From positions 1 to 57,523 of the forward strand of contig JAJRZP010000072.1 in assembly GCA_024275195.1 (NCBI GenBank): DNA of 57,523 bases. The letters are read 5' to 3'. A program made the translations under genes and the position numbers. The notes beneath the pieces are model-generated. The model was not told where the DNA came from, did not search any database, and worked only from the letters and a program-made list of their open reading frames with translations. The stretch's first letter is position 1. Every line of letters begins with the position of its first letter. Shown piece by piece: positions 10,281-41,954 of the stretch. This stretch comes from Chloroflexota bacterium (GTDB taxonomy: Bacteria > Chloroflexota > Dehalococcoidia > Lucifugimonadales > Lucifugimonadaceae).

Positions 10281-11663
10281 TTGGCCGAATCTGCATATCG
10301 AGCGCTGCCATCGATTGACTCACTTCTTCAATCAGGGGAAATTTCCGACCTGCTTCAAAACTACTCCCACGACGCAGTGGCAGGAGTCGCCCGAGACGTT
10401 CTGGGAAAAGCGCGTGCTGAAGTTGCCTCCACGGGAATTGTACCGTCGAGAGATCGCTTGATCGAGGAAATCGTACACAGGGCAAATCGCGCCTGGGGTA
10501 CGTGGCCTAGAGAAGTGGTGAACGCAACAGGGGTCGTGTTGCATACAAACCTCGGAAGGTCCCCACTGAGCGATAAGGTTGCGAAGGCTGCCGGAGATTC
10601 GGCATCTAACTATTCCGATCTCGAGTTTGATCTCGATGCCGGGAAACGTGGATCACGCAACGCTCATATCTCCGATCTTCTGTCGCAAGTAAGCCGGGCT
10701 GATGCCGGGATTGCGGTAAACAACAATGCAGCTGGAGTTCTATTGACCCTTGCCGCCCTCGTTAGCGTCGATCCAAATAAGACAGAAGTGATCGTCTCCC
10801 GTGGCGAGGCTGTGGAAATTGGCGGAGGGTTCCGGGTTCCAGACGTGATGCGCCAATCAGGTGCAAAACTCGTTGAAGTCGGAACCACGAATCGAACTTA
10901 CGTAGCCGACTACGAATCGGCGATAACTCGATACACCGCAGCGATTCTGAAAGTCCACCCGAGCAATTTTGTGGTTGAGGGATTCACACATGTGGCCGAT
11001 CTCGCCGATCTTGTCGATGTGGGAGGCCGGCATGGCATTCCGGTGATCAACGATCTGGGCTCAGGTTGCCTGGTCGACACTCGAAAATATGGGCTTGATC
11101 CGGAACCAACGGTGCAGGACTCTGTATCAACGGGGGCAGCACTGACGCTGTTCTCAGGCGACAAGCTTCTGGGAGGACCGCAGGCCGGGCTGATAGCAGG
11201 CGGAACGAACTGGGTCGATCTCGTGTCGAAGCATCCTCTGGCTCGGGCAGTCAGAATTGATAAAATGACCCTATCGGCGATAGCAGCAACGCTTGTTTCG
11301 TACCTGAAAGGCGCTCATGAGGCGGAAATTCCGATCTGGAAAATGATTTCGATGAGCGAGTCGAGTATCGCCACACGTGCGCAGAGATGGAGCGATGAAA
11401 CAGGTGTTGGAAGTATTGAACGCGCTCGATCGGCGATCGGTGGTGGGTCGCTCCCCGGTCAAACTCTGCCAACCACCGTCATGGCCATCGAACCCACGGG
11501 CAGTGCCGACAAGTTTGCAGCGGATCTTCGGCGCAGCCCGGTTGCAGTAGTTGGCCGGATAGAAAACGACCGGGTTCTGCTTGATCCACGCACCGTCATG
11601 CCCGAGCAGGATACTGCCGTGGTCGAGGCGATCAAGTTCGCGATCAGACAAACGACCAGATGA
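10281..11663 (+). CDS. selA: L-seryl-tRNA(Sec) selenium transferase
   Basis: PLP enzyme that turns seryl-tRNA(Sec) into selenocysteinyl-tRNA(Sec) using selenophosphate, in the cytoplasm. The protein has 460 residues, the usual bacterial length. It has the N-terminal helical domain, NATGVVLHTNLGR near residue 80, the conserved GAVEIGG-like stretch (REAVEIGG appears as GEAVEIGGGF), and FSGDKLLGGPQAG with the PLP lysine at residue 295. The start is TTG at 10281, preceded by an AGGAGA ribosome site at about 10269. The stop overlaps the Smr gene start by 4 bases. Its presence means the organism most likely makes selenoproteins; selB, selC and selD are not in the window. A candidate client is encoded at 39393-40916. 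Confidence 0.95.
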   Translation: MAESAYRALPSIDSLLQSGEISDLLQNYSHDAVAGVARDVLGKARAEVASTGIVPSRDRLIEEIVHRANRAWGTWPREVVNATGVVLHTNLGRSPLSDKVAKAAGDSASNYSDLEFDLDAGKRGSRNAHISDLLSQVSRADAGIAVNNNAAGVLLTLAALVSVDPNKTEVIVSRGEAVEIGGGFRVPDVMRQSGAKLVEVGTTNRTYVADYESAITRYTAAILKVHPSNFVVEGFTHVADLADLVDVGGRHGIPVINDLGSGCLVDTRKYGLDPEPTVQDSVSTGAALTLFSGDKLLGGPQAGLIAGGTNWVDLVSKHPLARAVRIDKMTLSAIAATLVSYLKGAHEAEIPIWKMISMSESSIATRAQRWSDETGVGSIERARSAIGGGSLPGQTLPTTVMAIEPTGSADKFAADLRRSPVAVVGRIENDRVLLDPRTVMPEQDTAVVEAIKFAIRQTTR

Positions 11664-29976: not shown

Positions 29977-30048
29977 GTTAAGCATGCATACAGAGGGAAC
30001 GACGCAACGTGGCACAGTGACGAGCGAGGTGGCGCATCAGGTAAATGG

Positions 30049-30138
30049 CGGAGGGTGCGGGATTCGAACCCGCGAGGAGGCTCAACACCCCCAACCCGCT
30101 TAGCAGGCGGGCGCACTAGGCCACTATGCGAACCCTCC
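30049..30138 (-). tRNA. tRNA-Ser (anticodon GCT)
   Basis: A 90-base class II tRNA read on the minus strand. The acceptor stem pairs GGAGGGT (30138-30132) with ACCCTCC (30056-30050), followed by discriminator G at 30049. The anticodon stem CCCGC/GCGGG encloses the loop CTGCTAA, so the anticodon is GCT (30104-30102), reading AGC and AGU. The long variable arm typical of serine tRNAs lies at about 30074-30094, and the T arm is GCGGG TTCGAAT CCCGC. CCA is not encoded. It is not tRNA(Sec), which would need a UCA anticodon and a longer acceptor arm. Confidence 0.96.
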
Positions 30139-36995: not shown

Positions 36996-37196
36996 ATGTG
37001 CAGATCTACCGCGGCCCCTTTGCTGGCGATTGTGGGTGTTGCGGGCACGGCAGCCGGGGTTGGTCTCGCGGTTATTCGCGACCGACTCGATAGGCTAGCC
37101 GATTCTCGCGCAGCAAAAGAGGCAAACGACGCGAAACGTGAAAGCGAACCACGCGAATCAGTCTCAACTGATTCGAACAACAAAGACAATGATTAG
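36996..37196 (+). CDS. Small putative membrane protein
   Basis: 66 residues: one hydrophobic segment (about residues 7-27, [20 protein letters not shown]) and a charged tail rich in Arg, Asp, Glu and Ser, as expected of a small single-pass membrane protein. I recognise no family. ATG at 36996; no strong ribosome site. Its last 4 bases overlap the end of yyaL on the opposite strand. The amphipathic ordering supports a real gene, but it could be a chance frame. Confidence 0.45.
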
Positions 37197-39253
37197 CCGA
37201 GTTGCTCGATCATCTCTTCAACTCTCGTAACGGGTAGTTTGCACGTGTAGTTCTCACACACGTAAGCGGTTGTCTTTCCATTAATTCGTGTTCTACCTAC
37301 TAACAGCGGCGAACGCTCATCCGACCCCAGATCTCCGGTGATTCCTGCCAGCACGAGGTTCGGCAAGAACGTACTGTTGACCGCGTGTTTCATCTCGCTC
37401 AGCACGTGATCATCCGGATCGCCAAGTAGCACCACTTCCTGTTTATCTGAACACATGAAATCGACTGCCGCCAGCCAAGAAGTGACAGACGCAGGGGTCT
37501 GCTCGAATAGCGGGATCATTGCCTTCATAGAAGTCTCAGCTTTTTCAACAAATCCTGTCTCACCCGTAAAGATGCTCAACCGCTGGAGCGCCATTGCAGC
37601 GACTGCCCCACCCGACGGCACAGCGTTGTCGAGAATATCTCGCGGTCGTACGAGCAGATTTGAATGCTCACTTGAGGTGTCGTAGAACACTCCCCGGTCG
37701 GTATCCCAGAATTGTTCGATCATCTGGTCGGCCAGTTCTCTAGCCTCGTCAACGTATGAGTAGTCGAAAGTCGCTTCATACAGCGTCAGTAGACCATCAA
37801 TCAAACAGGCGTAGTCGTCCAGATATCCCGGGATTCGGGCATCGCCCTCTGAATCGCTTGTCGCCTTCCATGTGTGAAGCAAGCGACCTTCAGAGTCTCG
37901 TATCTGAGTGAGTAGCAAGCGTGCGTTTTTTTCTGCGATGGCAATCCAGCCTGCGTTATCCAGCACGGCTCCAGCCTCGGCAAATGCCTTGAGCATGAGC
38001 GCATTCCAGGCGACAAGTATTTTATCGTCAATGTTGGGAGCAACCCTCTTCGATCGTTCGTTGAGGAGAGTCGCACGAATCCGTTCAATGTCGCCGAGTA
38101 GCGCTTCCTGATTTTGCGCCGAACGAGACAGAAATTCCGCCTGTGACAGTGGCAAGTACAGAATATTCGCGCCTTCGAAGTTTCCATCTTCGGTCACGCC
38201 CCAGTAAGCCCGGGCAAGTGCAGAATCTGTGGCATCGAGAACAGCATCGATTTCGTCAGCAGTCCAGACGAAGAATTTGCCTTCGACTCCTTCTGAATCC
38301 GCATCGGATGCCGAATAAAATCCGCCGGCGGAGTGGGTCATCTCACGGGTGATGTACTCCAATGTCTCTCGTACGATACGCCGGAACAGAGGTTTGCCGG
38401 TCGCTTGATAGGCGTGCAGATACAGCGACACCAGTTGAGCATTGTCATAGAGCATCTTCTCGAAATGCGGAACGAGCCATTTTTCATCGGTCGAATATCG
38501 TGCAAATCCACCTCCGACCTGATCGTAAATTCCACCATGAGCCATCTTTTCGATAGTGAGGTTCACGATATCCAGAACTTGCGAGCTTCCTGTTCGCTTC
38601 CAGTACCTCAACAGGTGTTCGTAGACCATGGGTTGTGGAAATTTAGGTGCGCCCTGAGTACCGCCATTTTCTAGATCAGCATTACCGACAAGCTGAGTGA
38701 AGCTACCGAACAACAGCGACTCATCGATAGCGCCTTCGTTCTTCTGCGGTATCGACTGCTCTTTGATCATATCGACGACCTGCTGGGAATTATCAAGCAA
38801 CCTCTGACGGTTGTTCGCGTAAGCATCGCTCACTGCTGCCAGAACCCGCGGAAATCCGGCCATGTTGTGCCGATCATCGGGTGGAAAGTAGGTCCCACCA
38901 AAAAACGGATGCCCGTCGGGAGTCATGAACACTGTCAACGGCCAGCCACCAGACCCGGTCATCGCCTGAACAGCCATCATGTAGATCGAGTCGATATCCG
39001 GCAACTCTTCCCGATCGACTTTTATATTCACGAATCCTGCGTTCATCGCTGCTGCTATCGATTCGTTCTCGAACGATTCATGCGCCATCACGTGGCACCA
39101 ATGACACGCGGAGTACCCGATCGAGAGCAATATCGGCCTGTTTAGCAGCTCCGCTGCGGCCAACGCCTCATCACCCCACGGATACCAGTCGACAGGATTG
39201 TCTTTGTGCTGGAGTAGGTACGGACTTGTTTCATTGGCTAAGCGATTGGGCAT
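37193..39253 (-). CDS. yyaL: YyaL/DUF255 thioredoxin-domain protein
   Basis: 686 residues from the ATG at 39253 ([23 protein letters not shown]), which is preceded by AGGAAA; an in-frame GTG 27 bases up is less likely. The first 160 residues form the DUF255 thioredoxin-like domain with the CxxC in SACHWCHVM, and the rest is an alpha/alpha-barrel like that of N-acyl-glucosamine epimerases ([28 protein letters not shown]). The eukaryotic homologue is spermatogenesis-associated protein 20. The biochemical role is not established. It lies 139 bases downstream of the NHL-thioredoxin selenoprotein candidate on the same strand, so two thioredoxin-fold proteins may share a transcript. Confidence 0.93.
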
Positions 39254-39392
39254 GGTTTTCCTGGCATTGTTGACACGCACGGTGATTCTTCGTTTGCATA
39301 CGACCAGAGCACTCGACGATATGATGTTGTGACGTGGCTTTCCGGTACCCCGGCTTTGGCCTCACCCGACATCGGCCGGTTTGCAATCTGAA

Positions 39393-40916
39393 TTAGATCA
39401 TCGGACTACGAAGGCCGCTCAAAACCAAATCGTAGACTTCATTCGAATCGAGCTCGATGACCTTGATCTTGTGATTGTTGGTATCAGCGACGTAGATGTG
39501 GTTGCCGACCTTCACAAGACCGGCGGGTTCGCTAAACTCGGCGACCGTTGCGTAGCCATTCTTATCGCCCGGTTTCCCAGACCCAGCGACGGTTCTTACC
39601 TGCAACGATCCAATGGCGACCGACTTAATCTTATTGTTGTATGAATCAGCGATGTAGATGACATCGTTGTGAACAGTCAGGCCCTGGGGATGCTGGAGCA
39701 ACGCCTCTTTCCCGACACCGTCGTGATCGCCAAAATCGAACAGCCCCTTGCCGACAAGGGTAACGACCCTTCCTTCTTCGGCAATTGCCGAAACCCGCAG
39801 AGCACTGGTTTCGCTATCGATAAAAAAGACGGCATTGTTTGATACTTCAATACCGTAGGGCTGAGCAAGACGCGCCGAGTCCTTGAGATCATCGACGATA
39901 TCCTCCTCCCCATCACCTGCGAACGGGGTAACAGATCCGTCTGAAATATCCATTGACCACAATTGGTGGAACCCTGCCATTGCGATGTACAGGATTCCAT
40001 CGTTCAGCGAGAGATCGTAAGGTGAGTTGAGCGGGACGCTGAGCGCATCTCCTCCCTTGTGGCGATACAGCGATTGCTCGCCTGTACCGGCGATCGTACT
40101 GGCAGTTCCAGCGACGAGGCCTACCCTGACTATCGTGTGTGTCCCGGCATCGGCAACATAGAGGTTATCGCCATCGATGACCACCCCCTGCGGGTTGTCG
40201 AACAATGGTTGGTCGAACTCTTTTTCGACGATCACCTCGTTGTTTTCGTCTTCACGCAGTGGCGATTCACCGTTGCCGATGACGAGTTCGACACCACCTT
40301 CGAGATCACTGACGATAAGGCGATGATGATTCGAATCGGAGATGACCAGCCACTCGCGCTCTGCGTCGGCCGTGATCTTCCCCGGAAACAAGAGGGGTGA
40401 ATCAGATCGAGACTCTGGTCGGAAGGTCAGTGCCCCCCGCTGGAACAGACCAGATGATTCATGCTCTTGGATCATCCCCGCTATCACAGTGTCAAGAGCA
40501 TCGAGTGGGAATTCACCCTCGTGACGGCCGATAACTTTGCCTGACGGATCGAGAAATATCAGTGTCGGCCATACGCGCACTGCGTAAGATTTCCATATTG
40601 CAAAATCCAGATCGTTTACGACAGGATGTTCGATCCCGTACCGGCGTACAGCCTCACGCAGGTTCTCGGACGATTTCTCGGCGTTGAATTTTGCCGAGTG
40701 GACACCGACAACTGTCAGGATATCGGCGTACTTCTTCTCCAGCTTCCGCAACTGCGGAAGTACATGCATGCAGTTAATTCAGCAGTATGTCCAGAAATGG
40801 AGGATTACCAATCGACCACCCAGATCGGTAAGTGTGAGGGGCGATTCCGTGTTGAACCATTCCAACCCTTCCGGGAACTGTGGTGCGTGGATGGTGCCTT
40901 CGTATCGCGTCGCCAT
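39393..40916 (-). CDS. NHL-repeat thioredoxin-like protein, candidate selenoprotein with in-frame UGA (U-I-N-C active site)
   Basis: 507 residues if the UGA at 40779-40781 is read as selenocysteine (residue 46). From ATG 40916, with GAGGGA just before, the frame encodes [15 protein letters not shown], then [10 protein letters not shown], then UGA, then [15 protein letters not shown]2-like proteins have FWTYCCINC here, so the UGA replaces the first cysteine of the C-x-x-C redox pair. Residues 1-140 are a thioredoxin fold; residues about 155-505 hold six NHL repeats (for example [37 protein letters not shown]) forming a propeller. Reading only from ATG 40769 would lose the active site. A hairpin follows the UGA and selA is in the window. 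The alternative is a nonsense mutation or sequencing error. Confidence 0.8.
40743..40760 (-). promoter_or_regulatory. Candidate bacterial SECIS hairpin
   Basis: On the minus strand, CTTCCGC (40760-40754) pairs perfectly with GCGGAAG (40749-40743) around the loop AGTT. It begins 18 bases after the UGA at 40781-40779, and the loop begins 25 bases after it. Bacterial SECIS elements are hairpins directly after the UGA, inside the coding frame, with a G among the first two loop bases; the AGUU loop meets this and has the GU pair important for SelB in E. coli fdhF. The hairpin also codes for the conserved LPQLRK segment. Confidence 0.65.
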
Positions 40917-41027
40917 TTCATCCCTCGCAATTGCCACAGTTCCTGAGTAATCGTCTTGCTGATTATTTCATGTCAGCCGGACGATGTATCCGTCCAGTTT
41001 CACCCAAGAATGTCTTGTGTGGGTAGA

Positions 41028-41954
41028 TTACTTCGACGAGTCGATGAACACTGGCTGGGTCCATGCGCGACCGCCTCTCGACGAGTACACGGTTGCGCGG
41101 ATATAGCGGTCCAATCGGCTTGGTTTGTAGCCGGGAGAGTTGCTGGTCGATTCGTAGAGCGTAGTGCCGTTCGAACCGGAGAACACTGTCGTGTATTTGG
41201 CTTTGGTGCCGTTTGCGTGAGTTTCGACATCGATATCAATCTTGATTTCACGGGTATTCGAAACCATGTCGCCGATCGTAACGCCGGTCGAAGCGTAAAA
41301 TTCTCCAACTGACAACGCTTCCAAAATATCCTGTTGCGTAAGAGATGCTGATTTCACCTGCACCCATCCTCGACCTGGATTCGAACGATCTACGTGGAAT
41401 TCACCGGTGTAGTTATGCGAGTCGTCCACGGCCAATCCCCAGACCTGACGACCTCTACTCAGTAGTCGATCCCAGATACCGATGGAACTGGCCTTGCCAC
41501 CCCCGCCCGAGTTGTGCGTATCAGGATGACCATTGAAGATCTCCATAAACTTGTAGCCTTCAACCTGCATCATCGCGCCATCATCGAACGCCCAGCGAAA
41601 GTTCGGGTGATTGATCGAGGCCATGCCACCGGCGGCGATGATTCGATCAACATTCTCACGCATGGCGTCTATGACGTCGGGAGAGTCGGAAGCTTCCACG
41701 AGTTCGGTCACTCCGTACCCGTTGACATGGACAGCGTTTCGGGATGTGACTTCCTCACCACGTACAAGCAGCGGCCATCTGGCCTTCTCAGCATCACTAC
41801 CTTCAAGGATCGTGAGATGATTATGGTCCGAGAGGCAAAGCCAGTCGTAACCATGATCGTGATACCACTCAGCGACGTGTTCAGGCGATTCATCGCCATC
41901 GCTGTTGGTCGTGTGAGTGTGAAGGTTGCCTTTGAGCCAGGATTTAGAAGTCAT
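41028..41954 (-). CDS. PHP-domain metal-dependent phosphoesterase
   Basis: A 308-residue protein of the polymerase-and-histidinol-phosphatase superfamily. The metal-binding motifs are seen in order: NLHTHTTNSDG near residue 10, CLSDHNHL near 40, GEEV near 67, INHPNFRWAF near 114, and AVDDSHNYTG near 196. The C-terminal 80 residues are beta-rich. No signal peptide is seen. It lies upstream of the NHL-thioredoxin gene on the same strand with a gap of 111 bases. The substrate is not known. Confidence 0.85.
   Translation of the reverse strand: MTSKSWLKGNLHTHTTNSDGDESPEHVAEWYHDHGYDWLCLSDHNHLTILEGSDAEKARWPLLVRGEEVTSRNAVHVNGYGVTELVEASDSPDVIDAMRENVDRIIAAGGMASINHPNFRWAFDDGAMMQVEGYKFMEIFNGHPDTHNSGGGGKASSIGIWDRLLSRGRQVWGLAVDDSHNYTGEFHVDRSNPGRGWVQVKSASLTQQDILEALSVGEFYASTGVTIGDMVSNTREIKIDIDVETHANGTKAKYTTVFSGSNGTTLYESTSNSPGYKPSRLDRYIRATVYSSRGGRAWTQPVFIDSSK

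Follow-up and report, generated by a model that had tools for sequence, protein, structure and literature searches.

The window, i.e., the whole stretch of 57,523 nucleotides that was analysed, is one contig of the 171-contig draft genome of a marine SAR202 bacterium (Chloroflexota, order Lucifugimonadales). The features that concern us are the following:

10281..11663, (+): selA, L-seryl-tRNA(Sec) selenium transferase (TIGR00474, 511.6 bits, cut-off 267.9)
37193..39280, (-): YyaL/DUF255 (Thioredox_DsbH) protein, downstream neighbour in a conserved gene pair (Pfam, synteny)
39393..40916, (-): predicted selenoprotein gene, NHLRC2/SOQ1-type thioredoxin plus NHL propeller, 507 aa with Sec46
39417..40406, (-): NHL beta-propeller of six blades, residues 171-500
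40455..40886, (-): thioredoxin-fold domain, residues 11-154, whose first helix carries Sec46 and Cys49 at its N-terminal end
40743..40760, (-): candidate bacterial SECIS hairpin, CUUCCGC-AGUU-GCGGAAG, loop 25 nt past the UGA
40767..40769, (-): false-start ATG, as picked by a standard ORF finder
40779..40781, (-): UGA read as U46, first position of U-I-N-C, aligned with a Cys of SOQ1/NHLRC2
40921..40926, (-): Shine-Dalgarno-like GAGGGA 5' of ATG 40916 (consensus match only)
41028..41954, (-): CehA/McbA-like metallohydrolase, upstream neighbour, conserved within the genus (NCBIfam, synteny)

The frame of the central gene comprises 507 codons, from ATG 40916-40914 to TAA 39395-39393, and its sole internal stop is the UGA at codon 46 (40781-40779). 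The original prediction described this frame as open save for that one TGA and preceded by a GAGGGA site; translation reproduces it with no second stop, and the site is present at 40926-40921. It also foresaw that gene callers would begin at ATG 40769 and miss the active site, which is what the plain, mechanical ORF list does, yielding a protein of 458 aa. When a bacterial SECIS rule set was applied to the 105 TGA-interrupted frames in the window, the Sec46 frame was the only candidate outside other long frames. As judged from the sequence, the gene would encode a selenoprotein in which hairpin-guided SelB inserts selenocysteine (Sec46) at the UGA, the product being an NHLRC2/SOQ1-type oxidoreductase; we assign this reading a probability of about 0.96.

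A thioredoxin-like domain and NHL repeats are detected in the protein by Pfam. In phmmer searches it aligns with SOQ1 over residues 11-504 (E 7.6e-106) and with NHLRC2 over residues 5-494 (E 8.5e-99), and residue 46 falls on the second cysteine of CCINC in both. The flanks of the UGA, HFWTYC and INCMHVLP, had been said to fit the family and have the context described, and the placement of the UGA exactly at the first cysteine of C-x-x-C (U-I-N-C) is borne out by the alignment to CCINC. An AlphaFold model (pLDDT 92.8, pTM 0.91) superposes on SOQ1 with a Z of 52.8 (1.6 A, 489 residues) and on NHLRC2 with a Z of 49.0 (1.6 A, 482 residues); it has six propeller blades, and U-I-N-C opens the first thioredoxin helix. 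As in the NHLRC2/SOQ1 family, a thioredoxin fold is followed by a six-bladed NHL propeller in one chain, and the CC(I/V)NC motif of the family appears as C-U-I-N-C, with the putative Sec in place of the second cysteine. The Sec46 protein scores below the cut-off of every NCBIfam model.

Homologues were surveyed in the window's family (76 genomes), order (247 genomes) and phylum (400 sampled genomes). Within the 76 family genomes, nearly all long homologues (51-80% identity) have an in-frame TGA, and it lies at codon 46 in C-U-I-N-C in 30/30 family loci read (the window and 29 more). The gene is present in 134 of the 247 order genomes at E <= 1e-60, about 120 of these having an in-frame TGA; eleven order genes span the site without a TGA, and all eleven have Cys there. 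At E <= 1e-80, 77/400 phylum genomes carry the gene, 20 without a TGA over the site, and the TGA is found in 56/400. A pattern scan of named genomes returned at least 117 stretches. Among the matches listed, the codon at the site of motif-caught loci is TGA in 195, TGC in 22 and TGT in 6, and eight loci that the motif missed, read by alignment, add five TGA and three Cys. This is the mixture of Cys codons and TGA at residue 46 that the original prediction had named as support in an alignment of homologues. Cys at +3 is present in 223/223 of the loci listed, thus in 195/195 Sec forms, and Cys at -1 in 193/195 Sec forms. As in bacterial selenoproteins, an in-frame UGA is aligned to the Cys of homologues with the flanks retained.

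Among the matches listed, these genes come from Chloroflexota (SAR202/Dehalococcoidia, Thermomicrobia, Sphaerobacter), two Armatimonadota, one Planctomycetota bin, and Methylomirabilota/Nitrospirae bins. Near-identical members of the last group may be partly binning errors. Three such Sec genes (L087, L114, L140), in bins named NC10, Methylomirabilota and Nitrospirae that may be mislabelled, have a different hairpin, CCAGAGC-UGGAC-GCUCUGG. The same in-frame TGA as in the window is present in CP046147.1, the cultured Ca. Lucifugimonas marina JH1073, which belongs to the window's own genus (PMC10444878). In a draft genome of which the window is one contig, a sequencing or assembly error that hides a true TGC or TGT might be suspected; however, over 190 loci, drawn from unrelated projects and including closed chromosomes and the cultured strain, share the TGA, so a read error is untenable, and a frozen hairpin lies 3' of the TGA nearly always.

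A start codon just past the UGA could also suggest that the stop is obligatory, so that the functional protein would be NHL-only, starting at ATG 40769, and what lies upstream would be dead. Such a pseudogene is very improbable given that divergence is about 0.5-0.6 at third codon positions vs. 0.04-0.22 at positions 1 and 2 on either side of the UGA, that WTYC before it and the Cys at +3 after it are conserved, that Cys forms read open straight through, and that hairpin conservation is confined to UGA forms. Decay past the UGA in close relatives, which the original prediction had named as a sign against itself, is not seen. Two loci (L155 and L129) have another stop shortly after, perhaps through damage or poor assembly.

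The strongest evidence added beyond the original prediction is a bacterial SECIS hairpin, which begins 18 nt 3' of the UGA. In the published bSECIS model (PMC13188914), the stem has 4-16 bp and the loop 3-9 nt, G occurs among the first two loop bases, the UGA and the loop are 16-37 nt apart, and the energy is at most -7.5. The hairpin in the window falls within these limits, with a loop of 4 nt (AGUU), a stem of 7 bp, a distance of 25 nt and -10.4 kcal/mol. Among the matches listed, all 7/7 pairs form in 125/141 distinct Sec genes vs. 0/28 Cys genes (Fisher 6e-21), and 133/143 distinct Sec genes vs. 3/28 Cys genes fit the full model, as do 139/2860 (4.9%) synonymous recodings. The paired positions covary, with 22 two-sided cells vs. 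5.1 in shuffles (0/500 shuffles as high), and pairs change on both sides from U-A to C-G and G-C, from C-G to U-A, and from G-C to C-G. The covariation score of the Sec set is 0.387, vs. 0.160 shuffled and at most 0.131 when slid; the Cys set gives no covariation signal (0.161 vs. 0.154). In the window's family, hairpin codons +7 to +12 are 98.8% identical, vs. 33% expected from codon usage and 46.5% in codons downstream. In one relative (L171), QLAE replaces QLRK in the protein, with the hairpin still kept in a shifted register. When the 60 nt from the UGA are folded in isolation, the hairpin is the centroid and not the minimum-energy fold (-11.5 vs. -12.8 kcal/mol; z -0.59), and a search of the window with Rfam at its gathering scores gives no SECIS.

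The genome of the window also has the machinery for selenocysteine. In addition to SelA, it encodes SelD, a tRNA-Sec (selC) with anticodon UCA, and SelB, of which the C-terminal winged-helix part is seen at a contig edge; SelB is partial because its contig ends there. The original prediction had held that the absence of selB, selC and selD would count against it, and all are present, as is selA. SelD (L247, G000:C68:7699-8628) has its own in-frame UGA in C-A-G-U-A-G-K, so this selenium donor enzyme would itself be a selenoprotein. A further match to the Rfam tRNA-Sec model (RF01852) at window positions 30046-30138 (hit at 30049; 52.3 bits vs. a cut-off of 47) was rejected by its anticodon as a tRNA-Ser(GCT), a false positive that could mislead surveys of the Sec trait. 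Across the family, a tRNA-Sec match is found in 34/44 genomes with the gene vs. 12/32 without it (Fisher p 0.0008). Ten of the 44 MAGs with a Sec gene, one of them rated 96% complete, gave no tRNA-Sec match even with a second search, and this absence is put down to missing contigs.

Readthrough as such requires no SECIS, and the UGA might instead be decoded in another way, through genome-wide reassignment to Trp or SECIS-free readthrough. Many of these same genes, however, end in UGA as their terminal stop, the Trp of the motif is TGG, the aligned residue elsewhere is Cys and the genome has the Sec machinery, which leaves this alternative as improbable as a pseudogene; a read error is more improbable than either. 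Relatives, hairpin and machinery support the claim of a genuine selenoprotein, and selenocysteine at codon 46 of this NHLRC2-type gene is, as far as sequence can indicate, near certain.

A tree of 135 proteins requires at least nine switches between Sec and Cys, six of them forced by well-supported branches; because the tree is unrooted, it does not tell their direction. In the phylum family f81, which also has Sec members, three Cys genes (L208, L210, L214) retain six of the seven pairs and the loop GUU, as expected from a recent change from Sec to Cys, and are apparent fossils of a lost SECIS. Cys forms were examined for a strict link to loss of tRNA-Sec, and none was found: 24/28 Cys-form genomes keep tRNA-Sec, so the Cys forms do not simply arise from loss of the Sec trait.

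The gene also has a conserved neighbour. Among 112 loci with at least 700 nt beyond the gene, yyaL is the next gene downstream on the same strand in 52, often with a gap of 5-20 nt or an overlap, and with an identity of 47% or more. The YyaL/DUF255 protein has a thioredoxin fold of its own (Pfam). In contrast to the seven bacterial genomes in which the NHLRC2 structure paper found no conserved neighbours (PMC6107167), the NHLRC2-type gene of many Chloroflexota has this one. Scans for sigma-70 promoters and terminators around the operon showed no clear excess over shuffles. In three loci of other genera in the family (L082, L083 and L085, in G008, G001 and G004), a second, DipZ/TlpA-like thioredoxin has an in-frame TGA in the motif VDFWTYT-U-YNC (IDFWTYT-U-RNC in L082) and, by its sequence, is likely another selenoprotein; the related thioredoxins listed for the window's genome have no TGA.

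The early position of the UGA (codon 46), a start codon within four codons after it and the closeness of yyaL (often within 20 nt or overlapping) raise the idea of a selenium switch built on the selenoprotein, whereby in low selenium the UGA would stop translation, or an NHL-only protein would be made from ATG 40769, and the yyaL operon would be regulated. We consider this unlikely, as the inner ATG is not conserved: many relatives have Leu, Val, Ile, Ala or His in place of its Met.

Under the preferred reading of a selenoprotein, a SelB-Sec-tRNA complex, placed by the hairpin 18 nt downstream, would insert Sec at UGA 40781-40779 rather than terminate. The product would probably be a cytosolic selenol-thiol oxidoreductase of the NHLRC2/SOQ1 type, with Sec46 standing for the nucleophilic Cys of C-x-x-C. 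Sec46 could attack an oxidised group, such as a disulfide, on a client; the client may be bound in the cleft that separates the NHL propeller from the thioredoxin fold, as proposed for NHLRC2. Cys49 would then resolve the intermediate as a selenenylsulfide, a role suggested because Cys at +3 occurs in 195/195 Sec forms among the matches listed; Cys45, present in 193/195 of them, appears usual and not essential. A cellular thiol system would re-reduce the enzyme, and the YyaL/DUF255 neighbour is likely to share its redox task. For the SOQ1 domain, redox activity has been called unresolved (PMC10173003). A more tentative proposal, doubtful as it stands, is that in the Chloroflexota NHLRC2 family the Sec form prevails and may be ancestral, and that it forms with YyaL/DUF255 an undescribed selenium-dependent redox pair, which the UGA would tune to selenium.

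NHLRC2 is essential in humans, where mutations in it cause FINCA disease, and photoprotection is under the control of SOQ1. To our knowledge, the chemistry of the CCINC site that they share is unsettled. The repeated swap of Cys and Sec at its second cysteine across a bacterial phylum points to that residue as the redox nucleophile, and the Sec form may offer a more reactive version of the site, usable for trapping clients. It would also add a selenoprotein family that is apparently unlisted and is common in SAR202, an abundant clade that can now be cultivated; standard gene callers are prone to cut the genes of this family short at the active site.

The original prediction knew of no described Sec form of this family, and the literature and inventory searches found none either. 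There is no NHL or NHLRC2-type entry in the 2026 inventory of 119 prokaryotic selenoprotein families (PMC13188914), and neither the literature searched on NHL/NHLRC2 and on SAR202 nor three selenium surveys describe a Sec form (subscription papers lay outside the search); fragments may be hidden in generic thioredoxin-like classes of the inventory or of marine surveys. The gene is thus apparently an undescribed, and widespread, Sec variant of a known protein family that would operate by a known mechanism.

Several known systems can be set beside it. Bacterial UxxC selenoproteins of the Trx, TlpA and redoxin types likewise have a UGA at the first Cys of CxxC followed by a bSECIS, but Table 1 of PMC13188914 describes none of them as NHLRC2-type or as having an NHL propeller. 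By sequence, the closest further relative with a thioredoxin fold is the C-terminal domain of Mycobacterium tuberculosis DipZ (2hyx, 5cyy; E 3e-20), a Cys form whose partner domain differs from that of the Sec46 protein. The lumenal domains of Arabidopsis SOQ1 (7djj, 7djk) are the same two domains, with Cys for Sec, in a plant protein that acts in photoprotection and adds a HAD domain and a membrane helix (PMC6107167). Human NHLRC2 (6gc1, 6g7w) shares with the Sec46 protein the thioredoxin fold, the six-bladed NHL propeller and the CCINC motif, and differs in having Cys90 where the bacterial protein has the predicted Sec, as well as an extra C-terminal domain (PMC6107167).
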